Part shown: positions 2 through 37,848 of the stretch, in pieces
How positions within the stretch are numbered: position 1 is the stretch's first letter
Layout of the letters: each line of letters starts with the position of its first letter
Virus record (IMG/VR): IMGVR_UViG_3300047462_000187
Coordinates: 1 to 37,848 of that record
Direction: 5' to 3' (one strand)
Source of the DNA: a virus
Length of the DNA stretch: 37,848 bases
Program-made: the position numbers and the translations under genes
Notes under the pieces: model-generated
Databases searched by the model: none
What the model was told of the DNA's origin: nothing
The model's input: only the letters and a program-made list of their open reading frames with translations

Positions 2-86
2 TGGTGCGGATGAAAGGAGTCGAACCTTCACGCCTTGCGGCGCTGGAACCTAAATCCAGTGCGTCTACCAGTTCCGCCACATCCGC
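2..86 (-). tRNA. tRNA-Leu (anticodon UAG)
   Basis: Read on the minus strand, a 7-bp acceptor stem (GCGGATG with CATCCGC), a long class II variable arm (CGCC-GCAA-GGCG), a T-loop TTCGACT and an encoded CCA end are all present. The anticodon stem CTGGA/TCCAG encloses the loop TTTAGGT, which gives anticodon TAG and leucine CUN decoding. The gene reads away from the phage genes, so its 5' end faces them. It may be phage cargo or a flanking host gene. The usual prophage arrangement, integration at the tRNA 3' end, would put the phage on the other side, so this tRNA is not an obvious attachment site. Confidence 0.95.
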
Positions 87-25646: not shown

Positions 25647-25847
25647 TTAAGCGTCAGCGCGGTCCAAAAGGTCAGCCAATTCGTCAATCATCAGGTCAGA
25701 CGGCAGAGCGGCGCACAGGCGCACAAGTTGACGCTTGAAAACCCGAATATCGCGTGATCTGGGGCATCCTGCGTCGCCTATGGCCGTGCCATGACCTGAC
25801 ACAGCAGAATAGACGGCTTCGTCTATGTCTGATGCATCTGGGCGCAT
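25647..25847 (-). CDS. Small protein between portal and protease genes, unknown
   Basis: The 66-residue product ends in an acidic helix (DLMIDELADLLDRADA). I do not recognise it. It is translationally coupled to the portal gene (TGATG at 25845-25849) and lies in the head module, so a small assembly role is possible. The middle (GCPRSRDIRVFKRQLVRL) is basic. An alternative view is that it is a spurious open frame, but the precise stop/start overlap supports expression. Confidence 0.55.
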   Translation of the reverse strand: MRPDASDIDEAVYSAVSGHGTAIGDAGCPRSRDIRVFKRQLVRLCAALPSDLMIDELADLLDRADA

Positions 25848-27607
25848 CAGGCGGCGCGCCGATCATCGAGCTCGCGATCATGCGCCGACCCCGACACCAG
25901 AGCGCTTAGTCGGCCCAGAAAACCGCGCGACCGTCGCGACGTTGCGTTGGGCGCTTTGGCCGGCGCGCCTGGCGCAGGTTGGCCTTGATCATTGGACGGG
26001 TCGGGCGCTTGGCGCGCGGGGTTCTTTGTGTCTTCAATCGCTTGGGCGACAGATGCATCTGTGGTGGCCAAGCCCAGCGAGGCCTTGAACTTGGCTTCCC
26101 GCGCCAACTGCGTAAGGTTGTCGCGCCAATCCTTGCCCTCTTCGGCCGCAATGTCTTCCAGCGTCTTAAACTGGGCTTCTTCGGCCGCCGCATTGCCGAG
26201 GATTTCCTTGACCATATCCAAATGGCCTTGGCCTGGGCCAATCCAGCGGGCGGCGGCGTAAGCGTCCGGCGCATCCATAAAGTCAGGCGCGCCGGCGGGA
26301 ACCTTAAGATAACCGCGCGAAAAGGCTTCTTCCAACCAGGCGACGAAGAACGGGCGAATGACTTGCGCCTCGATCATCGACATCAGGACATCAGTATCGC
26401 GCAGGGCCATAAGCCAGCCGGCCCTAAGCGACGAATAATTGACCTGGCTTAAATCTCCGGTCAGTTCTTCGTACGTCACGCCCAGGCGCGCTGCGATGGG
26501 CCGCACAATGGCGCGAAAGAAGGGTTCAAACGGGGCGATGTCCCGCGTCGCCGTGGCCAGCTTGATTTCATCGCCGAAGGGCAAGACGGGCATGCGCGCG
26601 CCGCCGGCCATTTCCACAGGATGCTTGTCGTAAAAGCCTTCGCGGGACCCATCAAACTTGATCATGTCGTCAAGGCTGAAGTTTTCGCTGACGGCCTCGG
26701 GCCCAGCGCTGGATTGGACAAAGCCCACAAGAAGCGCGTTGATGGTGGCGTTCTGCAGGGTCGCGTCTGTAAACTTCGAAAGTGCGCGAAACGACTTCAG
26801 CGCCGACACGAACCGCGACACGCCGCGCGATTGACCGTCACGATCCGGTTCGAAGGCGTGAAGGACCTGCGGCCGACCCCACGGCGTAAAGCGCTCTATG
26901 CCGGTCCAGACATAGGAATTGACGGCAAAGAAGTCGTTCGGATGCTGTTCGCGAAACCAGTAGCGGATGGGAACGCCCGACCAGCTATGTTCGATTCCGC
27001 CCCGGAAAATCTGGTCATTGATCCGGTTCCAGGGATTGGACAGCCGGTCGGGATCGATGATGTTCAGCCGCGTCTTGTAGCGGGTATTTTCATCTTCAGC
27101 CCATTCGATGACGCTGGGCGATTCCCCGTCATTGCAAATATGGCTGACGATGAGGCGCCCCAGACCGCCAAAATCGAGCTTGCGCTTAGCGTCCATGGAG
27201 AAGTCATGGCCGTACGCGTATTGCTTCCATTCGAGCTCGATCTGTTCGCCCAGCGCCTGCGCCTGTTCCGGCGTAATGTTGAGAGCTTTGGCCATGGGGC
27301 GAGACGACAGGAGCCATCCCCGGCCCACGGCCGTGTTCTTCTTACGCGTGACGGCGGTCGCCGCGATGGGATCATTGCGGATTTGATCGCGCGCCCGCGC
27401 CGTGGCCTGGTCGCGGTAGGGAAGCCAGTCGAGGTCCGCGGAGCGCAGCCAAGAATGCCAGGCGTTAAACCAGGGGCCCGTCCGCTTGCCCGCTTCATAG
27501 GGCGCGCCCCCGCCGATTTCGATTTCGCCATTGGCGCTGGCGCTTGGCCTGGTGACCTGCGCCCAGGCTTGGTCGGCTTGGGCGCGCGTCATTTGCTGTT
27601 CACTCAT
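25847..27607 (-). CDS. Portal protein, lambda gpB family
   Basis: The 586-residue product matches the lambda-type portal family. Features are an N-terminal region with a helix containing ATARARDQIRNDP and AVTRKKNTAVGRG, the RNDIxRNA-like wing, the central LNIIDPDRLSNPWNR and ERFTPWGRPQVLHAFEP segments, and the stem and crown helices near 320-480 (APFEPFFRAIVRPIAARLGVTYEEL). The dodecamer forms the vertex through which DNA enters and leaves. The C-terminal 70 residues are Ala/Pro-rich and probably disordered. The ATG at 27607 has AGGGAG with a 6-nt gap. Confidence 0.92.
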   Translation of the reverse strand: MSEQQMTRAQADQAWAQVTRPSASANGEIEIGGGAPYEAGKRTGPWFNAWHSWLRSADLDWLPYRDQATARARDQIRNDPIAATAVTRKKNTAVGRGWLLSSRPMAKALNITPEQAQALGEQIELEWKQYAYGHDFSMDAKRKLDFGGLGRLIVSHICNDGESPSVIEWAEDENTRYKTRLNIIDPDRLSNPWNRINDQIFRGGIEHSWSGVPIRYWFREQHPNDFFAVNSYVWTGIERFTPWGRPQVLHAFEPDRDGQSRGVSRFVSALKSFRALSKFTDATLQNATINALLVGFVQSSAGPEAVSENFSLDDMIKFDGSREGFYDKHPVEMAGGARMPVLPFGDEIKLATATRDIAPFEPFFRAIVRPIAARLGVTYEELTGDLSQVNYSSLRAGWLMALRDTDVLMSMIEAQVIRPFFVAWLEEAFSRGYLKVPAGAPDFMDAPDAYAAARWIGPGQGHLDMVKEILGNAAAEEAQFKTLEDIAAEEGKDWRDNLTQLAREAKFKASLGLATTDASVAQAIEDTKNPARQAPDPSNDQGQPAPGAPAKAPNATSRRSRGFLGRLSALVSGSAHDRELDDRRAA

Positions 27608-27909: not shown

Positions 27910-28131
27910 CTAAATTCGGAAAGTGACCGCGCCGCGCGTGCGGCGACGGGGCGAGCGTTCCTTGGCTTCGAGCTCTTCAATTTGCTGAAGCAGGAAATCG
28001 GGGTTTGCCTTGGCGAAGGCCGTGCGCTGGCCCGCGTATTCGATTTCGGACACGGCCGTGCCGCCGGCGAGTGCATCGCGCTGGGCGCGCAGCGTCGCCA
28101 GTCGGGCGGCTTCCTGGGCGGTTAAAGCCAT
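27910..28131 (-). CDS. Head-tail joining protein, gpW-like
   Basis: The 73-residue product consists of two helices: ALTAQEAARLATLRAQRDALAGG and AKANPDFLLQQIEELEAKE. It has the size, helix layout and position (directly after the large terminase, before the portal) of lambda gpW, which plugs the head vertex and permits tail joining. The C-terminus is basic (RSPRRRTRG). The ATG at 28131 shares a base with the terminase stop (TGATG); a GTG three bases upstream is possible. Confidence 0.8.
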   Translation of the reverse strand: MALTAQEAARLATLRAQRDALAGGTAVSEIEYAGQRTAFAKANPDFLLQQIEELEAKERSPRRRTRGAVTFRI

Positions 28132-30218
28132 CACAGTCCCTTTCTGGCGGCGAAGAAATCGCGCTTGGTGTCATTGCCGGGATTTGCCGCCACTTCAGCC
28201 TTGGGAATAGCAGGCGGCGTCTCAGCAGCGGCGAACAGCGGCAGTGACATTTCAGGCGTCCGCGCCCGGGCGGCGAAGAGCGCTTGCCATTCCGCCGGAG
28301 TGCGGACAAAGGCGCCGCGCGACCAGGCCAGGGCCCTGGCGTAGACAGCCAAATCGAGACGTTCGTTGGCTTGGCCGGGCAGGCGCTCCCACCAACCGCG
28401 AGCGCCCGACCGCATGGTCTTGGGCTGGCGAAAGATTTCCGACGCATAGCCTTTGAAATCTTCTAGGGTCGCATCGATCGGATTGTAGAGGCCGCCGGGA
28501 AGGCGCACTTTGTCGGCGGCAAGAGTTGTCTGAAGGGCGCCATAGATGACGCTCTTCAATCCCCAGCCGCCCACCAGGTAGGGCTCCAGCGTCAGCGAAC
28601 CGCCATCGCGCAGGCGAATGGTTCGACGCTTGCCCCGTACAAGCGGCAATCCGTCCGCGTCGCTGGAACCTTTCAGAGCGAAGACATTGTGACGGCCCCG
28701 CACGAAGCGGTAGACCTTTTCCGTTACACCTTTTTTTCCGCCCAGATCGACGCCGAACGCGTCAAAACCGAGATCAACGGTCGCCTCGCCGACAAACCTT
28801 TGCGCCACCACCAGGCCAAGTTCAGCCCAGGCTTCCGGCTCCAAGGGATCAATATCAATGACGCCCCAGTCGAAGCGGGCGCAGCTCAGGTCAGGCCCGA
28901 AAGCGTAGGCGTCCCACTCGATCCGGTCGCCCTGGACGTCCGCGACGCCGATCACCTCGCAGGCCCAGGCCGGAATGACGCCGCGCTTGACGTACTTGCC
29001 CCGGGCGTCGAACAGCCGCTGATAGTCGGGCGCATCCGCCGCGTCATCCCAGGCCTGACCGAGCTTTTGCTGGTAAAATGTGATCAGGGCGCCGGGATCA
29101 GAACCGCAATCAACCGCTTTCTTGGCCTCGTCGTATTCGTCGAGCAGACGCGACCAGGATTTGAACGGCGAATAGGCCTGCCAGATGTGAAACGACGGGT
29201 CGCGCCCTGCAGACGTTCGCGCCTGCCAATGCGCTAAATCGGCCGCAGGAAAACAGGACGGCGGCGCCGGGTTTTCTGGATTTGCAAGAGACCCGCCGAC
29301 ATCCATGTCGCGGTCTTCATAGGTTTTAATCCAGACGCCACCCTCCAACAGAGCGGGCTTGTGAATTTCATCGATTAGTTCGCCACAGCCTTGGCATTTG
29401 AAGACAGCGCGGCCACCCTCGATACGCTTCATGGCCTGAAATTGCAGGTGTTGACGGGCGCCGCAATGCGGGCAGGCGACGTAGTAGAGGCGATGATCGC
29501 CCGCATTCAGCATTCGCGTGATGCGGCAGGAGGGCAGGCGCTTGGGCGTCGAGACGTGAAGCGCCTTGAACTCCTCATGGCCATCGCCACGCGTTTCAGC
29601 CTGTTTGATCGGGTCGCCACGGCCGCCCGCATCAGCTGGAAATTCCGAGACCTCGTCGCAGCATAGGCGCTTCACAGATCGGCCCTGCAGGCCCTTAGAG
29701 CTTGAGGCGGACGTGACATGCAGAAAGCCGCCCGGAAACTTTTTGAAGGCCGTTGTCGAGCCCGTCTGCGAGCGATCAACGATGTCACGCACCCGCCAGG
29801 GCTTTCCGCCCTCGACAGCGGCATCCAGCGTCGGTTGCCATTTGGTGTTGTTCCAGGTCCTCATCTCATCGAGGGACGGCAGAACCAGCATCATGGGCGC
29901 GGGGTCGTCGTTAATCGTCTGCCCGGCCCAGTTCATGAAAAGCTCGGATTTGAGCATCTGGGCGGCGGCGCAGACAATGCACCGACGAGCAGGATTGTCC
30001 GCGTCCAGAACCGACATGGGTTCAAGCGCGTAGGGGCTCGTCGAATTCATCCATTTGCCGGGTCGCGATGATCCGGACTCTGGACTTACGAAGCGATCCT
30101 CTTCCGCCCACTGGGCAATCTTGCGAACATTGATCGGCTGGGCTGCGGCGGATAACGCGCCGAACATAACGATCGCGGCGCTGGCCAGTCCTTTGATGTG
30201 GCGAAAGCTGCGCGCCAT
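28131..30218 (-). CDS. Terminase large subunit, gpA family
   Basis: The 695-residue product belongs to the lambda gpA family of DNA-packaging ATPase-nucleases. After an N-terminal hydrophobic start come KWMNSTSPYALEPM (typical of the family), an atypical Walker A-like segment CAAAQMLKSE (83-92), and Walker B in RLCCDEVSEFP (Asp188-Glu189). A zinc-binding pair of C-x-x-C motifs (249-252, 275-278) and a C-terminal nuclease region with DLGFDAFGVDLGG follow. The enzyme would cut concatemers and translocate DNA through the portal. The ATG at 30218 has GGGGAGG 7 nt upstream. Residues 10-26 are unusually hydrophobic, but this is common in the family. Confidence 0.92.
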   Translation of the reverse strand: MARSFRHIKGLASAAIVMFGALSAAAQPINVRKIAQWAEEDRFVSPESGSSRPGKWMNSTSPYALEPMSVLDADNPARRCIVCAAAQMLKSELFMNWAGQTINDDPAPMMLVLPSLDEMRTWNNTKWQPTLDAAVEGGKPWRVRDIVDRSQTGSTTAFKKFPGGFLHVTSASSSKGLQGRSVKRLCCDEVSEFPADAGGRGDPIKQAETRGDGHEEFKALHVSTPKRLPSCRITRMLNAGDHRLYYVACPHCGARQHLQFQAMKRIEGGRAVFKCQGCGELIDEIHKPALLEGGVWIKTYEDRDMDVGGSLANPENPAPPSCFPAADLAHWQARTSAGRDPSFHIWQAYSPFKSWSRLLDEYDEAKKAVDCGSDPGALITFYQQKLGQAWDDAADAPDYQRLFDARGKYVKRGVIPAWACEVIGVADVQGDRIEWDAYAFGPDLSCARFDWGVIDIDPLEPEAWAELGLVVAQRFVGEATVDLGFDAFGVDLGGKKGVTEKVYRFVRGRHNVFALKGSSDADGLPLVRGKRRTIRLRDGGSLTLEPYLVGGWGLKSVIYGALQTTLAADKVRLPGGLYNPIDATLEDFKGYASEIFRQPKTMRSGARGWWERLPGQANERLDLAVYARALAWSRGAFVRTPAEWQALFAARARTPEMSLPLFAAAETPPAIPKAEVAANPGNDTKRDFFAARKGL

Positions 30219-30243
30219 GGCCAAGCCTCCCCGACAAACGATC

Positions 30244-30831
30244 TCAGATCAGCGCCGCGCCTTCCGCATACCGTTCCGGCGCAGCGTAGGCGCCGACGCT
30301 CGCTTGAGCGGCTTCGCCGGCCGCGTCCATTTCGCGGGCGAACGCCCCCATGGCGGTTTCGAATTCCTGCCCCAGGAAGCGCGCAAGGGCGGCTTGGCGA
30401 TCAGCCGGTATGCCGAAGGTGGCGCAGATGCGTGACGCCGCATCGCGCCGGGCATTGTTGAAGGTCTTGCGCATGGCGGCGATGGCGGCCCGGGCGGCGG
30501 CTTCGACGTCTTCAACGGCGACCAGCTCGCCGCTTTCGCGCCCCAACTGGAGCGCTTTCAGGTCGCGTTCGATTTCTTCGCGTTCAACCTTGGCCGATTT
30601 CGGCCGTTCGACCCCAGCCCCGGCGGGCGAAGGGGTATGGGACTTTCCGACGGTTTCGAAGAGTTCTAAAGCCCGCTGGCGCTTGGCCTCGTCGAGGCGA
30701 CCTTCGAGCATTTGAAGGGTCGCGAGCACATCAACTTCTAAGCCATCGACGACGATGCGTCCATCAGCTTCGTACTTCGAGACCATTTGCTTGGAAATGC
30801 CGCAGAGCGAGGCGAAGGCGGAACGTCTCAC
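30244..30831 (-). CDS. Terminase small subunit, Nu1-like
   Basis: The 195-residue product starts with a winged-helix DNA-binding domain (about 1-40, containing FASLCGISKQMVSKYEADGR). A helical oligomerisation region follows (EAAARAAIAAMRKTFNNARRDAASRI). The domain order matches lambda Nu1, which recognises cos for packaging initiation. The GTG at 30831 has GGGAGGG 5 nt upstream; an in-frame TTG at 30867 would add 12 residues without a good ribosome site. Downstream, the large terminase begins after a 25-nt gap. Confidence 0.78.
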   Translation of the reverse strand: MRRSAFASLCGISKQMVSKYEADGRIVVDGLEVDVLATLQMLEGRLDEAKRQRALELFETVGKSHTPSPAGAGVERPKSAKVEREEIERDLKALQLGRESGELVAVEDVEAAARAAIAAMRKTFNNARRDAASRICATFGIPADRQAALARFLGQEFETAMGAFAREMDAAGEAAQASVGAYAAPERYAEGAALI

Positions 30832-30943
30832 GTCAACCCTCCCGTCAAACGTCAACCACTTTGGCAACCTGCCGCACTAGAGACACCCCGGGGCTCCGCC
30901 CGACCGTATTGCGCCGCGACCCCGGGAAGGACCCGCTGACCAT

Positions 30944-30960
30944 GGCGCGCGCCGCGCGGC
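30944..30960. repeat. GC palindrome copy 6, three mismatches
   Basis: GGCGCGC-GCC-GCGCGGC lies in the leader upstream of the small terminase gene, 113 nt before the GTG start. It keeps the core GCGCGCGCCGCGCG and shares its ends with copy 8. Confidence 0.75.
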
Positions 30961-31090
30961 GGCCAATCCAGCGGGGCGGACGAGGGATTGCCAGAGCGCC
31001 GGGCCGAGGATGAACCCATCAGTCCGGTTAGCAGTCCCTAGTGTTGTCGCTGCAATCCTGATTGCGCCTACTCCTGGCCGTTCGCCAATG

Positions 31091-31122
31091 AAAAGCCCGC
31101 GCTGCAGTGAAGAGACGCGGGC
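31091..31122 (-). terminator. Intrinsic terminator after the NusG paralogue
   Basis: On the minus strand GCCCGCG (31122-31116) pairs with CGCGGGC (31101-31095), 7 bp, with a 14-nt loop, and is followed by TTTTC. It lies 36 nt past the stop of the NusG-like gene and before the small terminase. The stem is strong, but the T tract is short, so it may be only partly efficient on its own. Confidence 0.7.
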
Positions 31123-31157
31123 CAGATTATGCGTGTTTTGGGGTATGGTAAGGACGG

Positions 31158-31712
31158 CTACCGCATATCAGCTTCCAAAACGGAAGTGATATGCAAGTCG
31201 ACGCGCGAATCGCGTCCGAGAATTGAGAGTAAGATCGTGATCCGATCAGCGTCAAGTCGGCGCTCGAACATGGCGTTCACGCCCATGAAGGGATCGACCT
31301 TGATGCGGACCTTATCACCGGGCTTGAATGGGAATGGCTTTGGCGCGGCGTCGGTCTTCAGCTGCAACGATCCCTCTATCTCACGGCTGCGCAGTTCGTC
31401 GATGAACCGATCCGGCACGAAAGCGGGATTGTCACCTGACGTGATGAGATTGTGGACGCCGTGAGTTGAGAAGATTGAGCGCCAGGCCTGAACGGTCGGA
31501 TCGATGCTCACGAACAGGTAGCGGGGCAGAAAGGGCGTAATCGGCCGTTTGGATGTCGGCGAGCAAAGACGCATTGGCAAATAAGTCTTGAAACCTTGAT
31601 ACTCAAGATTAAGTTTAGCTTTAGTTTCCTGATTTGGCTTGGTGTTAACAACATACCAACGAGGTCCAACTTCTACTTCTCTTTTATCCTTTAATTTATT
31701 TGAACTGTTCAT
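31158..31712 (-). CDS. NusG paralogue, putative late antiterminator
   Basis: The 184-residue product has an NGN domain (about 18-110) with WYVVNTKPNQETKAKLNLEYQG, PFLPRYLFVSID and RSIFSTHGVHNLI. A KOW domain follows (about 129-182), with FKPGDKVRIKVD and GRDSRVDLHI. NusG-family proteins bind the elongating polymerase; specialised paralogues such as RfaH and LoaP act on chosen operons. The position between replication genes and the late operon, followed at once by a terminator, suggests late-gene antitermination. The N-terminal 45 codons are strikingly AT-rich compared with neighbours. The ATG at 31712 has only a weak ribosome site; a longer frame to 31787 crosses a dyad. Confidence 0.82.
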   Translation of the reverse strand: MNSSNKLKDKREVEVGPRWYVVNTKPNQETKAKLNLEYQGFKTYLPMRLCSPTSKRPITPFLPRYLFVSIDPTVQAWRSIFSTHGVHNLITSGDNPAFVPDRFIDELRSREIEGSLQLKTDAAPKPFPFKPGDKVRIKVDPFMGVNAMFERRLDADRITILLSILGRDSRVDLHITSVLEADMR

Positions 31713-31765
31713 TTTGAGAGCCCTGGAAGGGGAAGGTGAAAACGAGGGTACGGACGAACGGACGA

Positions 31766-31786
31766 TGACATGGCGTGCACATGTCA
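31766..31786. promoter_or_regulatory. Operator-like dyad upstream of the NusG paralogue
   Basis: TGACATG (31766-31772) and CATGTCA (31780-31786) form a perfect 7-bp inverted repeat with a 7-nt centre, suited to a dimeric repressor. It lies 54 nt upstream of the NusG-like start. Two tandem ACGGACGA units (31750-31765) lie between the dyad and the gene. The binding protein is unknown; the HTH proteins of the early block are candidates. Confidence 0.55.
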
Positions 31787-31811
31787 CCTCACATGACGCA
31801 GGCGTATGCGC

Positions 31812-32027
31812 TTAAGGCGGAAACACTGTTCGTACTGTTCGTACTGTCCGTAACGCCATTAAATCCAATAGCTTAAGTAACGGACAGTGAACGGACAACG
31901 GACAGTATACGGTGACTTTCGCGCCGCTTCGAAAAGTGCGTTCCCCTTCGGTTCCAGCTACGGCGTCTCGCACTGTCCGTACTGTCCGTTTTTTGGACTG
32001 ATGGGTCCAGGGTTGGGGGCGGCTCAT
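31812..32027 (-). CDS. Doubtful small frame over the iterons
   Basis: A 71-residue frame starts at an ATG overlapping the helicase stop (ATGA at 32024-32027), which is the coupling pattern used elsewhere here. Its sequence, however, is mostly the translation of the iterons (RTVRTVRDA near the start, RTVRTVRTV near the end), with no recognisable domain. The overlap may be chance, or the short peptide may be real and the repeats may have arisen within it. I lean to non-coding. Confidence 0.25.
   Translation of the reverse strand: MSRPQPWTHQSKKRTVRTVRDAVAGTEGERTFRSGAKVTVYCPLSVHCPLLKLLDLMALRTVRTVRTVFPP
31825..31989. repeat. Iteron array (ACTGTYCGT), candidate origin or operator
   Basis: Seven copies of a 9-mer occur in three groups: three head-to-tail at 31825-31851 (ACTGTTCGT, ACTGTTCGT, ACTGTCCGT), two inverted at 31880-31888 and 31898-31906 (ACGGACAGT, with a partial copy between them), and two head-to-tail at 31972-31989. 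The array lies between the SF3 helicase gene and the NusG paralogue. The adjacent helicase fits an origin where the helicase or primase binds repeats; a repressor operator array is the main alternative. The 311 bases from 31713 to 32023 hold no other supported gene. Confidence 0.72.
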
Positions 32028-33673
32028 TCTGGCCACTCCACGTCCAAATCGGCGCCCGGTTCAAAGCCTTGAGCGCTTTCGGAAACGCCGCCGGCGCTGA
32101 TAGACGCCGTCTCGGCAGGGGGGCGGGGATTCGATTTTTGCGCCTCATCGGCGAGGCGATAGGCGCGAAGTTCGTCTTCGGTCCGAAGTCTAATCGGTCC
32201 TCGAAACTTCTGACCGGCGCTGTTTTTTCCGGCCAACATGATCTGACGATCGCGCAGGGCGTCCCCAAACGCTTTTTGGCTCATGATTCGATCATTCCCC
32301 TGATCTTCGCACCAGGCCTTGAATGACTTGTAGAGCACGCTCGAAAGCTCGCGTGCGTTCCTAGCCTCTTCACGGATCAAACAATATTCAGACAGCCAGT
32401 CGCCGAAAGGACTTGCCTGTTGACGCCAGTCACGCACGACGATTTTCAAACTGTCGGGCCAATTCAGGCCTTGCGCCATCCAGTCGCCGACGCCATCCAC
32501 GAGCCAGTTCAAAATGCCGGAAAGCTCGTTTTCTCGCAGTCGGCAGGGCAGGGTTCTATCGACTTCGCTGTCAGGAACTTTTCTGCGAAACAGCACAACG
32601 TGAATACGCCGGTAAATGCCGTCATCGTCGCCCTTGATGACTGGAAATGAATTGCACTCGAAAATCAGCTTTGGAACTGGCCGAAAATTAATTTGCTGCG
32701 AATGTAGATCGCGCGCAGCCAGCGGCTCGCCGCCTGTCCAACCCTTCAGCTTGCCTTCAGCGAGCTTGGCGCCGCGAGGTGGCTCTGACAGGATGACAAA
32801 GCGACTGTCACCCGCCAGGGCAATAATGTCGGGCTCTGGACCACGATTGACGGGATTGTTCGATTCTAAAAACGTGTCGGGTTTAGATGCGACGCCATAG
32901 GTTCCCAGGGCTTCGCGACAGGCGTCAAGCAAGGTTGATTTGCTATCCTGTCCCGGCCCCTGGACGAAGAAGAACGCCTGGTCCTGCGTGTTGCCCGTCG
33001 AAGCATAGCCGCACATACGATGAAACGCGGCTCGCTCATCTTTTTTGGCGAGCGCCTTTTCCAATACGCCCAGAAATTCCGGCGCTTTGGCGTCCGGATT
33101 ATAATTGGTGGCCGTGCATCGCGTTATACGGTCGGCCGGATTGTGCGGGGCAAGCGACTTTCGAAATTTTCCATCGCAATAGCGCATCTTCAACGTGCCA
33201 TTCAGGCAGTTGATCGCGTACAAGTCCTGATCGAAATCCGACAACGATGCGCCAAGATAGCTCTTCGCCTGTATAAGCATCGCGCTCGTCTTACCGGCCG
33301 AACCCGTTTCATTGGCGAATTTCCAGAAATCCTTGTCCGGTGTGCCTTTTTCTTTGAAAATGGGGTAAAGGCTTGGAATAAGCAGCGCCACCCTGTGGGC
33401 AAGCTTTCGAGCTAGGTCTTCGCCGCAGTCTCGATCCCAAAACCGACCGTTAAACCCAAACCAGCCCAGACCGAGAACGAATAAGAGCCGGCTGTTCGTT
33501 GAGTCGACCACCGGGCCGCTGTCGTCATCTTCAACCGCGCCGCCGGCCATGAGGATGAGGCGATAGGCGTTGCCCAGATCATTCGTCGCAAAAGACGCGA
33601 GGCGCTCCAGCGACGGTCCGCCGGAGCCTGGACGCGCCCGATCGCCAAACGGGGATGCGATGACCTCACCCAT
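32024..33673 (-). CDS. D5/P4-family SF3 replicative helicase
   Basis: The 549-residue product has a D5-N-type region (about 30-230) and an SF3 helicase core. The phosphate-binding loop is GPGQDSKST (239-247). Walker B lies at FVILSEPPRG (292-301), with WTGGEPLAARDL (312-323) after it. The sensor asparagine is Asn341 in KLIFECN, and arginines in YRRIHVVLF (354-362) act as fingers. Hexamers of this type unwind phage origins, often with a primase partner. The loop departs from G-x-G-x-N-G-K-S-T: Asn is Asp243 and the Gly before Lys is Ser244. The C-terminus looks like a winged helix (about 440-500). The ATG at 33673 overlaps the upstream gene by 8 bases. Confidence 0.85.
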   Translation of the reverse strand: MGEVIASPFGDRARPGSGGPSLERLASFATNDLGNAYRLILMAGGAVEDDDSGPVVDSTNSRLLFVLGLGWFGFNGRFWDRDCGEDLARKLAHRVALLIPSLYPIFKEKGTPDKDFWKFANETGSAGKTSAMLIQAKSYLGASLSDFDQDLYAINCLNGTLKMRYCDGKFRKSLAPHNPADRITRCTATNYNPDAKAPEFLGVLEKALAKKDERAAFHRMCGYASTGNTQDQAFFFVQGPGQDSKSTLLDACREALGTYGVASKPDTFLESNNPVNRGPEPDIIALAGDSRFVILSEPPRGAKLAEGKLKGWTGGEPLAARDLHSQQINFRPVPKLIFECNSFPVIKGDDDGIYRRIHVVLFRRKVPDSEVDRTLPCRLRENELSGILNWLVDGVGDWMAQGLNWPDSLKIVVRDWRQQASPFGDWLSEYCLIREEARNARELSSVLYKSFKAWCEDQGNDRIMSQKAFGDALRDRQIMLAGKNSAGQKFRGPIRLRTEDELRAYRLADEAQKSNPRPPAETASISAGGVSESAQGFEPGADLDVEWPE

Positions 33674-33992
33674 TAGCGCGGTCCAGACGTTCGACTTCGG
33701 CGACGATTAGCGCAGCGGCCTTTATTAGGTCTCTGCGAGGCGTAGTCGGTTTAAATACGCGTGGCGCCCAAGGCCAAAGGCCTTGGGCGTGCTTAAATAT
33801 TATTTGCTGAAATCGATATTGAAGATCAGCGAGAGATAAAAAACAAGAATATTCCGCTGACGATACATATGCGTAAGCTGCAGCTGCTTGAGCTAACTCG
33901 CCGCGATTATAAGAGTCGTCGTGTTGACGCGAATAATGCTTGTGGGTGATTTGACATTCCCGTTCAGCCGCGATTTCCTCGATCACACTCAT
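33666..33992 (-). CDS. Small conserved phage protein, unknown
   Basis: The 108-residue product has the pattern IAAERECQ, RQHDDSYNRGELAQAAAAYA, GLWPWAPRVFKPTTPRRDLIKAAALIVAEVERLDR. This arrangement (ER-Q, HDD, GELA-AA-YA, WPW, KP, RRDL-KA-ALI-AE-ERLDR) recurs in many proteobacterial phage genes, often near replication. It looks like an all-helical domain; no activity is known to me. The ATG at 33992 overlaps the Prim-Pol stop (ATGA) and has GGAGG with a 5-nt gap. Confidence 0.75.
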   Translation of the reverse strand: MSVIEEIAAERECQITHKHYSRQHDDSYNRGELAQAAAAYAYVSSAEYSCFLSLADLQYRFQQIIFKHAQGLWPWAPRVFKPTTPRRDLIKAAALIVAEVERLDRANG

Positions 33993-35776
33993 GAATTCCT
34001 CCAACGATCACTGAAACCGACGCCGCTCGATGGGCGCATGACATGCACGGCGGTTGCGCCGGCGCGACGCCAAGCCTGTTCAGCCAGTCCGGCGTAAAAC
34101 CTGGCGGCGATCTGGCCCGTCGCGACGTTTTTACGTGTGCCGCCGAAGATGCGGCGGGTGCGAAGTTCTGGCGTTCGCAGATCATCGCGAACAGCGAGCC
34201 AGACCTGGCGCGCGCCCTTCACGGTCCAGGGCGCCATGCTCGGGTCGCTGATGGGCGTTTCAGCATCGGCCCGGCCATAACGGTCGCCCATAAAACCGCC
34301 AGCGAAGGCGCTCAGCGTTGGCGCGAACACCAGGCCGACATCGTGTCCGCTTTCGGCCGCCGCGACGCCTAACGCCCAGGTGTCCTGCAGGTCCTGCGCG
34401 ATCAGAAGAGCACCGTCGGCTGGCCACGAGGAGAGAAGCGCGACCTTGCCGGACCTATCGCCCACAAAAGCTGTCGGCCGATCATGATCATCGATCAGCG
34501 GAATCAATGCGACCGCTTCGACATCGCCAGCCCAATCCGGATCATTTGACGCCGTGAGCGGAATGAGAAGACACGGCCCTAACCGATCTTGCCCAATAGG
34601 TGCGCCGGCGTGAGCACGAAGGCGCGATAAGGTTTCAGGCAGATCGGCAGAATTCAGGTTTCTATGACGAAACCAGGTGCGCACCATGCCGCAATCGGCT
34701 GACCTGGCTGACGCCCAAAGCTGGCGAGCGTTTCGGACGTCGACGGCTTGGGCCGCCGCACTAGCGACGGCCACGCGCCGTGGCGCCGCCGGTTCAAAGG
34801 CTTTGCGCTCAGGGGCGGATTCCGGCTTAAGCTCACCCTTGCGAAGCCCATTTTCTACGAGCTCTTCAAGCTGTTTTGGGTGCCAAGGAGTGTCCTGATG
34901 CTGGGCATGCCCGGCGCTGATCAGGCTTTCTTTGGCATAGGCGCGATCAATTTCGCCGCCGGCGACATAGGCGCCCAGAAAGCAGCCGTAGTTGAAAACC
35001 GAAATCCGCCGCTGACCAGGCCCAGCTGCAGCGACGGCCTTGCACGATGTCGATAAGATCGCCTCGCCGTAGCGTGTGGCGCGCCCAGATCGAATAACCC
35101 GGACGAGCGGCTTTGCAGCCGTGCTGATCTGTTCCGGCGGTTCCGCAAGCCGCAGGAGCCAGTCCGGCGCCTGGGCGAAGGGGCGATCAAAAGGCGCGCG
35201 CCGCGCGCACCAGGTGTAAATCCTGCCAGCCGGAATCCCCTTTTTCTCGTCGCCGGGATGGATCGAGGGCGGCGCGACGATATAGCCGCCATTGCCGCGC
35301 ACATCGATCTGAGGCCCGATCTTGGACGCCCGGCTCTTGATCTGAAACCGATCATCCCAGGCGAAGCACTGGTGACGTCCGCCGCCTGTGATCTGTTCGA
35401 CGGTTTCCGGCAGCTCGCCATGAACATCGGTCAAGGCCTTAGCGGACGCTTCGCCGACATCGCCATCCAGATCGAATACCCAGAAACCGCTGATCTTGCC
35501 CGTGGCGATGCCGATATTCGACTGGGGCGACGGATACACGGGCTTAAAGTCAGGCTTGCCAGGCTCTGGCGACGTCAAGGGAAGCGCGAGCTTGCCCGAC
35601 CACCAACCCGCGATAGTTTCCAGGTCTGTTGTGGCGGACAGAAATCCCAGGCTATGGCCATAAGGGATTTTGGTTTTTGGGCGGAGCGGGAAGACGGCGA
35701 TTCCCAGGCGCGCGTAGGCGAGGGCGGCCTCAGCGAGGGCGTTCGCGCCGCGTTGAAAGTCTTCTAGCCGTGTCAT
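33989..35776 (-). CDS. Prim-Pol DNA primase/polymerase with C-terminal Toprim-like region
   Basis: The 595-residue product begins with a bifunctional primase-polymerase domain (about 12-210). It shows YARLGIAVFPLRPKTKIPYG, the metal-binding D-x-D (Asp102, Asp104 in FDLDGD), the GGGRHQCF motif (His135), and QIDVRGNGGYIVAPPSIHPG (Asp158). It would lay primers and may extend them. The C-terminal half (about 350-570) resembles the DUF7146/Toprim region of other phage primases (ARQLWASARSADCG, AVALIPLIDD, LLIAQDLQDTWALGVAA), but the usual acidic pattern is not clear. The ATG at 35776 overlaps the upstream stop (ATGA), so it is coupled to the early block. It pairs with the SF3 helicase encoded two genes downstream. 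Confidence 0.85.
   Translation of the reverse strand: MTRLEDFQRGANALAEAALAYARLGIAVFPLRPKTKIPYGHSLGFLSATTDLETIAGWWSGKLALPLTSPEPGKPDFKPVYPSPQSNIGIATGKISGFWVFDLDGDVGEASAKALTDVHGELPETVEQITGGGRHQCFAWDDRFQIKSRASKIGPQIDVRGNGGYIVAPPSIHPGDEKKGIPAGRIYTWCARRAPFDRPFAQAPDWLLRLAEPPEQISTAAKPLVRVIRSGRATRYGEAILSTSCKAVAAAGPGQRRISVFNYGCFLGAYVAGGEIDRAYAKESLISAGHAQHQDTPWHPKQLEELVENGLRKGELKPESAPERKAFEPAAPRRVAVASAAAQAVDVRNARQLWASARSADCGMVRTWFRHRNLNSADLPETLSRLRAHAGAPIGQDRLGPCLLIPLTASNDPDWAGDVEAVALIPLIDDHDRPTAFVGDRSGKVALLSSWPADGALLIAQDLQDTWALGVAAAESGHDVGLVFAPTLSAFAGGFMGDRYGRADAETPISDPSMAPWTVKGARQVWLAVRDDLRTPELRTRRIFGGTRKNVATGQIAARFYAGLAEQAWRRAGATAVHVMRPSSGVGFSDRWRNS
35193..35209. repeat. GC palindrome copy 7, inside the Prim-Pol gene
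   Basis: GGCGCGC-GCC-GCGCGCA differs from the consensus only at its first base. It lies in coding sequence near the end of the Prim-Pol domain and encodes part of WCARRAPF, an exposed-looking Ala/Arg stretch. Confidence 0.8.
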
Positions 35777-36168
35777 GGCCTGAACTCGGCGAGAAGAGCG
35801 TCAAGACGCGCAGCGCTCGCCGCGTCCATGACATAGCCGTTGCCCCAAACTGTTTCGACATGAATGCCAAGCCGCAAATATTCGGGGCGCAAGCGGCTCA
35901 TAAAAACTTTGAGAATGTTTTGATCGGGACCGCCGTTAGGATCATCGCCGTAGATGAGGCCGTGCAACGCGTTATAGCTAAAGACGTGGCCGGGACGGCG
36001 TTTCAAAATCGCTGTTAGGCGCGCCGGAGTAGATGGCTGTCGTAACAAACGCTGTAATGCGGCGATCTCATTCACGCCGACCAGCTCCGCAATTAATGAC
36101 TTCAACCGAGAAATCTCTGCGGCCTGTTCGGCGATGATGTCGGCGGCAGACATGCGGGTAGAAGACAT
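35773..36168 (-). CDS. Stand-alone CtrA-like winged-helix DNA-binding protein
   Basis: The 131-residue product has an N-terminal helix (about 7-45) and a C-terminal OmpR/PhoB-type winged helix (about 55-117) with SYNALHGLIYGDD, QNILKVFMSRLRPEYL and HVETVWGNGYVMD. The last segment is close to the ETVWGRGYVL wing of alphaproteobacterial CtrA. The receiver domain is absent, so binding would not depend on phosphorylation. It may control phage early or late promoters, or hijack host cell-cycle promoters. The ATG at 36168 overlaps the methyltransferase stop (TGATG) and has GGGGG 6-7 nt upstream. Confidence 0.78.
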   Translation of the reverse strand: MSSTRMSAADIIAEQAAEISRLKSLIAELVGVNEIAALQRLLRQPSTPARLTAILKRRPGHVFSYNALHGLIYGDDPNGGPDQNILKVFMSRLRPEYLRLGIHVETVWGNGYVMDAASAARLDALLAEFRP

Positions 36169-36821
36169 CAACCACCCCCTTCGTCTGTGAATTGCAGGTC
36201 GCTGGCGCGGCTCAGGCGCTTACGCGTTCCTGGCGGAATGGGGACGAGGATTGGTGCATAGCCGCGCGGCTTGCGCGTCTGCAGCCAGATGAACCAGGAA
36301 TAGAAAGTGGCGGTTCGGCCCTTTTTGACCAGCCGACCCTTGTGCAGGGGAATGCGCTCTGAAAAGGGCGCCAGGATATGAAACGGCGCTATTTCATAAA
36401 GCAAGCGGTAGCGCGCGATGCCTTCCAACGCCCGCGTTGGCAGGAACATCGCAACCCCGCGCGTCGCGACATTGAGTGAACGGGTTACGAATTCAGGCGC
36501 ATGACGAAAAGGCGGATTGGTGATGATCCACTCAGGGGCGGCTACAGGCGCCGGTGCATCCGACAGAAAATCGTGAACCTGGCCATAACCGTAATCGACG
36601 AGATCACTGCAGATGACCGACGGGAAATAGTCTAGCAGTCCATGCGCGCCCGATCCGTGGCCGCAGGCGTTTTCCCAGACGATTTCAGCCATAGGGTCGA
36701 AGCGCTTCACAAGTTCGGCGCCTGCGCGAAACCCCCAGGGCCAGGTCGGGAAGAAATCCGGGTCCCAATCCGCAGTCGCCGCCCGCTGCGCCATGACGGC
36801 TATGTCATTGCGCGCCTTCAT
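36168..36821 (-). CDS. Putative adenine-specific DNA methyltransferase
   Basis: The 217-residue product has ENACGHGSG (50-58) in the place of the SAM-binding motif I, an acidic segment SDLVDYGYG (72-80), and NPPF (102-105), the catalytic motif typical of N6-adenine methyltransferases. A basic C-terminus follows. It lacks a large target-recognition domain, as do many phage orphan methyltransferases. It could protect phage DNA from restriction or alter gene control. The ATG at 36821 overlaps the upstream stop (ATGA at 36818-36821); a frame reaching 36887 would overlap the upstream gene by 70 bases and is rejected. Confidence 0.78.
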   Translation of the reverse strand: MKARNDIAVMAQRAATADWDPDFFPTWPWGFRAGAELVKRFDPMAEIVWENACGHGSGAHGLLDYFPSVICSDLVDYGYGQVHDFLSDAPAPVAAPEWIITNPPFRHAPEFVTRSLNVATRGVAMFLPTRALEGIARYRLLYEIAPFHILAPFSERIPLHKGRLVKKGRTATFYSWFIWLQTRKPRGYAPILVPIPPGTRKRLSRASDLQFTDEGGG

Positions 36822-37054
36822 GGCCAATCCCGCAAACGACGGGCGAGGGCGCGCACGACTAGCGACTGGCCCGTCGTTTCCAGCCATGGGACGAGGGCGG
36901 CGAACTCGTCGGCGTCAAAATGCTTCACCAAGACGCGGCCGTCGGCTGGCTTCAGTTCGACGATCCAACCGGCATCCCAAACGCTACGGATCGAGACGTC
37001 GATTTCATTGGCGTATAGGCCCTTCAACGTTTGCTCTAAGGACAGCTCGCTCAT
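36818..37054 (-). CDS. Small unknown protein of the early block
   Basis: The 78-residue product (starting MSELSLEQTLKGLYANEIDV) has a strand-rich middle (SIRSVWDAGWIVELKPADGRVLVKHF) and ends in a helix with RALARRLRDW. I do not recognise it. It is tied to both neighbours by ATGA overlaps (37051-37054 and 36818-36821), so it is clearly translated with them. The GAGG about 8 nt before the ATG is moderate. A possible role is a partner of the methyltransferase or regulator. Confidence 0.6.
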   Translation of the reverse strand: MSELSLEQTLKGLYANEIDVSIRSVWDAGWIVELKPADGRVLVKHFDADEFAALVPWLETTGQSLVVRALARRLRDWP

Positions 37055-37464
37055 GCGCCGCGCCTCAGGCGTTCGAGGTGCGCGACGCCCGTATCGGTTA
37101 TCGTCCAGCCTTTATTCGTGCTGGCGACCAGGGCGCGCGACCTGAGGTCGTAAAGGTGATTGTTGACGGTGAACGGGGTGAGCTTTGTCACCTCGCTGAT
37201 CTTTAAAATCGATTGAGGCGCGCGTGTTAGAGTCGCCAGGACGTGATGCTGGCCCGTAATCGGCGTCCAGGGCGCTTTGAAGACTGTCGTAGCCGGTCGA
37301 GGTGCGTCCACGGTCACGTCATAGAGTCGACGCACGTCTTGTTCATTACGCCCAAGATTGCGCGCCACCGCGCCCCAACTCGCGCCCAGGCTCCTCCATT
37401 TGGCGACCATTTCCCGCTCGCGGGCGACCGCGCCCACGCCAAAGCGTTCTTTCAAATCAGGCAT
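37051..37464 (-). CDS. Double helix-turn-helix regulator
   Basis: The 137-residue product has two DNA-binding parts. Residues about 16-48 (EREMVAKWRSLGASWGAVARNLGRNEQDVRRLYD) form a homeodomain-like helix-turn-helix, loosely like GcrA. Residues about 72-135 (HHVLATLTRAPQSILKISEV, then FTVNNHLYDLRSRALV and GWTITDTGVAHLERL) form a winged helix of the MarR/ArsR style. It may control early genes or the operators at 31766-31989. It starts one base after the upstream stop; its ribosome site is weak. Confidence 0.75.
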   Translation of the reverse strand: MPDLKERFGVGAVAREREMVAKWRSLGASWGAVARNLGRNEQDVRRLYDVTVDAPRPATTVFKAPWTPITGQHHVLATLTRAPQSILKISEVTKLTPFTVNNHLYDLRSRALVASTNKGWTITDTGVAHLERLRRGA

Positions 37465-37465
37465 G

Positions 37466-37834
37466 TCAGTCGTCCGCGTATGGTTTACGGATGGAGGAAA
37501 CGGGCGACCCGGAGTGCCGCGCGCGCGCCGCGCGGCCGTCGGCCTCGTCGAGAATGGCGACTACCTGGTCAGCCCATTGCAAAATCATCGGCGCAAGCGC
37601 AGCCCGCGCAGCAATCGTCGAACACCTGGCGAACGCGTTCAGCATGGCGCCCAGGGCAGAACAGACGAAACATTCGCCGCGATCTTGCGTCGGGCAAGTC
37701 CAAGACTCGCACCCCCTGGCGACCTGCGCCAACCCCGGCGTTATTTCGCGCGGATTTGTCGCCGCTTCGATGGCGCGTTCCGCCAGCCGCCGCCAGGCGT
37801 GGCGATAGGCGCTTTGCTGTGTCAGAGCCGGCAT
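37466..37834 (-). CDS. Cys-containing protein at the start of the early block, unknown
   Basis: The 122-residue product has five cysteines (42, 47, 55, 58, 71), four of them within 17 residues in CESWTCPTQDRGECFVC, suggestive of a zinc or cluster site. Helices flank it. The C-terminal region encodes GRAARARHSGS over a GC palindrome. I do not recognise the family. The ATG at 37834 has GGAGG with a 6-nt gap. It is the first gene of the visible operon; what lies upstream is outside the window. Confidence 0.6.
   Translation of the reverse strand: MPALTQQSAYRHAWRRLAERAIEAATNPREITPGLAQVARGCESWTCPTQDRGECFVCSALGAMLNAFARCSTIAARAALAPMILQWADQVVAILDEADGRAARARHSGSPVSSIRKPYADD
37520..37536. repeat. GC palindrome copy 8, inside the first early gene
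   Basis: CGCGCGC-GCC-GCGCGGC shares its core and its right end with copy 6. It lies in coding sequence and encodes Arg/Ala codons. The two arms pair over 5 bp instead of 7. Confidence 0.72.
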
Positions 37835-37848
37835 GGCGCGCCTCCGAA

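Follow-up and report, generated by a model that had tools for sequence, protein, structure and literature searches.

What opens the late operon of a phage that carries its own NusG paralogue directly in front of its terminase genes? To our knowledge, late-gene control is unknown for most phages. The window, by which we mean the whole stretch of DNA analysed, is a 37,848-base viral record from a virus of bacteria and has no end repeats. On its minus strand the order is Prim-Pol, D5 helicase, an intergenic stretch, nusG, a 290-nt leader, terS, terL, portal and a lambda-type late operon. The genes are as follows.

32024-35776, minus strand: upstream replication genes (D5/P4-type helicase, 32024-33673; Prim-Pol, 33989-35776)
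31158-31712, minus strand: NusG/RfaH paralogue gene P0001, 184 aa, ATG at 31712 and stop at 31158, with NGN at residues 18-108 and KOW at about 128-180
30244-30867, minus strand: terminase small subunit TerS (phrog_57), the first late gene; exact start uncertain
28131-30224, minus strand: terminase large subunit TerL, GpA type, by Pfam and PHROG matches
25847-27607, minus strand: portal, by Pfam and PHROG matches
1890-28130, minus strand: remaining presumed late operon, with portal, protease, decoration, major head, tape measure, tail tip J, tail fibres, spanin and endolysin

A preliminary description of this DNA held that the packaging genes open a late operon of about 30 kb, and this is borne out: terS, terL and portal come first, and head, tail and lysis genes follow to about 1890. 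A tRNA-Leu gene lies at positions 2-86 (minus strand), at the extreme edge of the record past the lysis genes, and may be an attachment-site marker or a phage-borne tRNA. An Rfam search of the window returned only a tRNA, with no JUMPstart and no other leader RNA. Between helicase and nusG, repeats of ACGGACAGT in both orientations are clustered at 31843-31989, and upstream of nusG in one relative (L043) a comparable layout holds eight ACAGACAGT-type copies. Both kinds of repeat may be replication iterons or operators. The idea that direct repeats ahead of nusG belong to the switch was rejected, since they are present in L043 and missing from most relatives.

The same description had reported an NGN-KOW protein of 184 residues at 31158-31712, and this is confirmed. 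The protein matches Pfam NusG (PF02357) with an E-value of 9.8e-20 and 71.3 bits against a cut-off of 22.2, and the NGN domain is followed by KOW, which places P0001 in the NusG/Spt5 superfamily. The RfaH model TIGR01955 gives 4.9e-32 and 111.1 bits, under its curated cut-off of 144.5, so the protein is better said to work like RfaH than to be RfaH. Its best PHROG is phrog_6386, "transcription antiterminator" (1.6e-20). Matches to the UpxY model (8.9e-18) and the LoaP model (8.7e-4) are weaker, and phmmer against RfaH chains gives E-values near 1e-11. An AlphaFold2 model built from 56 aligned relatives (pLDDT 90.5) has an NGN domain and a beta-barrel KOW domain. Foldseek places RfaH, as seen in ops-paused complexes (8phk, 6c6s), among the first three matches to this model.

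Substituting K10, R16, H20, T72 or R73 of RfaH produced the strong defects in its response to ops (PMC2871177). At these DNA-reading positions, by alignment to RfaH, P0001 has K, K, N, T and H: two identical residues, one conservative replacement and two changes. The replacement of H20 by Asn and of R73 by His counts against the antiterminator reading. Counterparts of RfaH I93 and F130 are present and that of E48 is not. The first 140 nt or so of the gene (31572-31712) are AT-rich, with a GC fraction of 0.37 vs 0.56 for the remainder, and most relatives differ here; this part is possibly a recombination joint or a promoter.

Searching with the P0001 protein by itself returned a near-identical copy of the window as its sole close relative, and an alignment query was needed to reach further. 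A NusG-paralogue profile was therefore scanned against 2.9 million viral contigs with the terminase not consulted, and the loci found were then searched with terminase profiles from five seeds. In all 66 loci with a detected TerL, the terminase gene lies downstream of nusG on the same strand, never upstream or on the opposite strand; two of these loci were fetched through TerL and so are not independent, and the count based on NusG similarity only is 64 of 64. The median distance to TerL is 1.2 kb, and 56 loci have it within 3 kb. Because the NusG proteins form 51 clusters at 50% identity and the downstream terminases are of GpA, HK97, P22 and Terminase_6 types, the arrangement is not restricted to a single family of phages. 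The gene order also holds in two that have been cultured, Bradyrhizobium phage ppBjS10J-1 and Microcystis phage vB_MweS-yong2, where protein identity is about 25%. A minority of loci, those without TerL, are polysaccharide clusters, the classic setting of RfaH. Six of the loci (L044, L045, L048, L050, L062 and L071) were set aside as host-type RfaH contexts of this polysaccharide kind rather than phage late operons.

Three further features, all between the end of nusG and terS, bear on how such a protein could act.

31157-31164, minus strand: ops-like core GCGGTAGC, overlapping the nusG stop codon (extended form TGCGGTAGCCGTCC, 31165-31152); proposed loading site
31091-31122, minus strand: intrinsic-terminator-like hairpin (stem, 31122-31095) followed by TTTT (31094-31091); proposed gate
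30904-30936, minus strand: cos-like sequence GCGGGTCCTTCC-N-ATACGGT, in general form GGGTCCTTCC-N(12-13)-ATACGGT, between terminator and terS

The cos-like sequence precedes terS in GpA-type relatives (L028, L036, L041 and the L144-L192 group) and is absent elsewhere among the loci tested; at 30936-30904 it may be a cos site or a binding site for TerS.

In E. coli, RfaH is recruited by a 12-mer, the ops element GGCGGTAGCGTG. The window octamer at 31164-31157, to which the preliminary description made no reference, equals its positions 2-9, a single block of eight of the twelve, and sits 34 nt 5' of the hairpin. It thus provides, in the leader of the presumed target operon, the linked ops element characteristic of RfaH-type regulators. 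An ops-like GGCGGTAGAG is also quoted in the literature (PMC2871177). That only positions 2-9 are kept counts against the ops reading, nearly every ops base being important for E. coli RfaH (PMC7593976).

Within the window by itself the octamer occurs three times vs 1.4 expected, which is uninformative, so the case rests on the relatives. When leaders are set side by side, a consensus GTGCGGTAGCC[GA]TCCA appears directly past the nusG stop in the relatives of the window phage. In regions from -60 to +250 around nusG stops, 27 kb in total, there are 27 exact copies of GCGGTAGC vs 16 in about 1.02 Mb elsewhere on the same strand; the opposite strand has none in the same near-stop stretches and 46 over its whole length. 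Counted by NusG clusters, 18 of 51 have the octamer near the stop vs 0.41 expected, an excess of more than 40-fold, with about three of the 18 being polysaccharide clusters. Coding constraint is no explanation for this conservation, since the motif is non-coding in most relatives. One locus, L063, carries a perfect E. coli-type ops (12 of 12 positions, GGCGGTAGCGTG) 13 nt before the end of nusG, with terminase downstream. About two thirds of the NusG clusters are without the octamer, and Bradyrhizobium phage ppBjS10J-1 likewise has no exact copy. Among the loci without it is a clade of eight (L057, L066, L069, L077, L083, L084, L096 and L109), with HK97-type TerL where detected, whose members share a GCAGCGCG(T)TTT-type element some 90-110 nt past the nusG stop, possibly another loading site or a terminator.

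The association was also approached in reverse, by searching viral contigs with nothing but the 15-mer TGCGGTAGCCRTCCA, which gave at least 87 loci. Among the matches listed, 7 of 87 have a NusG homologue, and in all seven of these the motif lies 10-46 nt past the NusG ORF on the same strand; one is a contig already known and six are new. Each new contig carries, in order, the nusG stop, a 7-nt gap, the motif, a further 25 nt or so, a CCCGCCC..GGGCGGGTTTTTC terminator (one base changed in L192), the cos-like site and TerL. Where covered, their portals are 50-53% identical to that of the window and their TerL proteins about 30%. The other 80 listed matches, which have no NusG nearby, are probably chance occurrences, as expected in so large a collection.

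The preliminary description had also reported a 7-bp GC hairpin with TTTT at 31091-31122, and this too is confirmed. The hairpin, GCCCGCG-14 nt-CGCGGGC, begins 35 nt past the nusG stop and folds with 9 pairs at about -17 kcal/mol; a simple scanner missed it because its loop limit was 8. A stem of equal grade arose in 2 of 2000 Markov-randomised leaders, although about 0.8 are expected per whole 37.8-kb strand, and the best leader terminator in the window outscored all 60 doublet shuffles. Leaders of the window's clade (the window, L032, L038/L039/L043, L046, L148, L180 and L185) have a strong hairpin followed by T, with dG from -17 to -31. Almost every one reaches the lowest p attainable with 60 shuffles, L148 standing at p 0.08, and terminator sites on the opposite strand are weaker or missing. 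GC hairpins of a similar kind but followed by just TTT, below the scan rule, occur in L034, L037 and L041, and L033/L036 have ops and no convincing terminator. The first family-wide scan found a terminator in 8 of 71 leaders, mostly from a few close-knit groups. The proposal that the terminator is the gate therefore stands as a plausible one for the window and its clade, where the hairpin is conserved, and was rejected as a defining feature of the family. In the window and its clade the regulator gene lies directly before the late operon with a terminator between, the arrangement of a Q-like locus.

In a phylogenetic tree the window falls within a group of 14 rows (support 90), 13 of which have the element, and phage and cellular rows are intermixed more than once. 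A basic residue at position 10 is found in 22 of 23 phage rows with ops vs 20 of 50 without, and Thr at 72 in 23 of 23 vs 29 of 50. Counted by rows, the association is far from chance; on well-supported branches there are just three independent pairs, few enough that the link of K10 and T72 with ops could come from shared descent.

We consider it likely that P0001 is a phage-encoded, ops-recruited RfaH-type antiterminator at the position of lambda Q, acting on polymerase that arrives from the upstream operon. The preliminary description had proposed the phage's own NusG paralogue as its late switch, and the position before the terminase, the linked ops-like element, the partly kept RfaH residues and the RfaH-like model all lend support. 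What the sequence establishes is the family of the protein, the order of the genes, the motif with its conservation, strand and position, and, in the clade, a conserved hairpin; pausing, binding, readthrough and timing are inferred, as follows. RNA polymerase from the replication operon, whose genes at 32024-35776 are the probable source of the transcript, would traverse nusG and reach the ops-like element that overlaps the stop codon. In the early phase of infection the enzyme would halt at the hairpin 34 nt beyond the element (31091). Once accumulated, the NusG paralogue would bind polymerase paused at the element, making contact with the non-template strand and the beta-prime clamp helices in the manner of RfaH, and would remain on it across the hairpin, the cos region and some 30 kb of late genes. 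Because loading requires crossing 31164, the polymerase must have started upstream of nusG or inside it. The position of the element within the 3' end of nusG would also make the late transcript an extension of the early one, with no separate promoter. The simplest circuit would be one long operon.

The most serious competitor, though we judge it improbable, makes the hairpin the ordinary end of an early transcript and has the late genes read from a promoter of their own in the leader, the paralogue acting on that transcript only as a general anti-Rho and translation-coupling factor. The failure of the terminator to be conserved family-wide would suit this account, as would the fact that the target of many antiterminators is Rho-dependent termination and not the intrinsic kind. 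Yet polymerase starting at any such promoter would already be downstream of the ops-like element and would bypass it; no sigma70-like site was found on the minus strand from 29000 to 37848, although the promoters of this host may differ.

Two other accounts detach the protein or the motif from late transcription. P0001 might be a cargo (moron) copy of RfaH that serves the surface-polysaccharide operons of the host by way of ops sites there, or that disturbs the host's own RfaH, an idea encouraged by the nearest plasmid and chromosomal homologues, which adjoin polysaccharide genes. Cargo genes, however, are usually variable in place, whereas this one has a fixed place and strand before the terminase in dozens of clusters, with an ops-like element linked, and we regard a cargo role as very unlikely. 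Less probable still, with hardly any weight in our estimate, is that the octamer serves packaging or some other DNA-level purpose, as part of a cos or pac site, instead of pausing polymerase. In the window phage it does lie at most 230 nt from the cos-like sequence, but it also stands beside NusG paralogues before HK97-type and Terminase_6-type terminases and by polysaccharide genes where there is no packaging; it is found each time on the non-template strand of the transcribed DNA, and its sequence equals the ops core.

The antiterminator reading draws on known systems without coinciding with any. With RfaH and ops of E. coli it shares the NGN-KOW protein, ops positions 2-9 on the same strand and the kept K10 and T72; it differs in that the P0001 gene lies at a phage late-operon boundary and acts beside itself, the 3' third of the window ops is CGT instead of GTG, and the KOW domain is predicted as a beta barrel where RfaH has an alpha hairpin, E48 not being kept. 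The resemblance to phage late antiterminators such as lambda Q, with GafZ of the Caulobacter GTA (PMC11150451) among them, lies in genome position and in the proposed job of passing a pre-late terminator. Q itself is an unrelated protein that loads near the promoter with a Q-binding element, whereas loading of P0001 is proposed at an ops-like element ending the regulator's own gene. LoaP and UpxY/TaA are likewise specialised NusG paralogues whose genes adjoin the long operon served, but those operons are for cell-surface or antibiotic products, and LoaP reads an RNA hairpin. It is already known that phage NusG paralogues are grouped in PHROGs, P0001 belonging to PHROG 6386 by score; that annotation comes without cis-element, position or a late-expression role. 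A mention of rfaH-like genes on prophages exists (PMC7593976). None of the open-licence papers searched treats a phage NusG paralogue as a late antiterminator or describes the Q-locus position across phages, the linked ops-type element or the late-switch model.

For NusG paralogues encoded inside the operons they serve, modes of recruitment have been described as unknown (PMC7593976). Having protein and landing site side by side in dozens of diverged versions offers a natural library for the reading of ops by NGN domains. The locus also gives a testable answer on late control, obtained from sequence alone, for a broad set of phages with at least four terminase types, and it suggests that the RfaH-ops mechanism extends beyond bacterial surface and conjugation operons. 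The arrangement, repeated in unrelated phages, is probably a little-noticed route to late-gene activation. On balance, and with less assurance than for P0001 itself, we favour the broader view that an RfaH-like protein with a linked ops-type element replaces Q in a widespread, separately evolved class of late switch, in which ops at the end of the regulator's gene would turn the early transcript into a late one by positive feedback, and that phages may be a main reservoir in which RfaH-ops pairs diversify.
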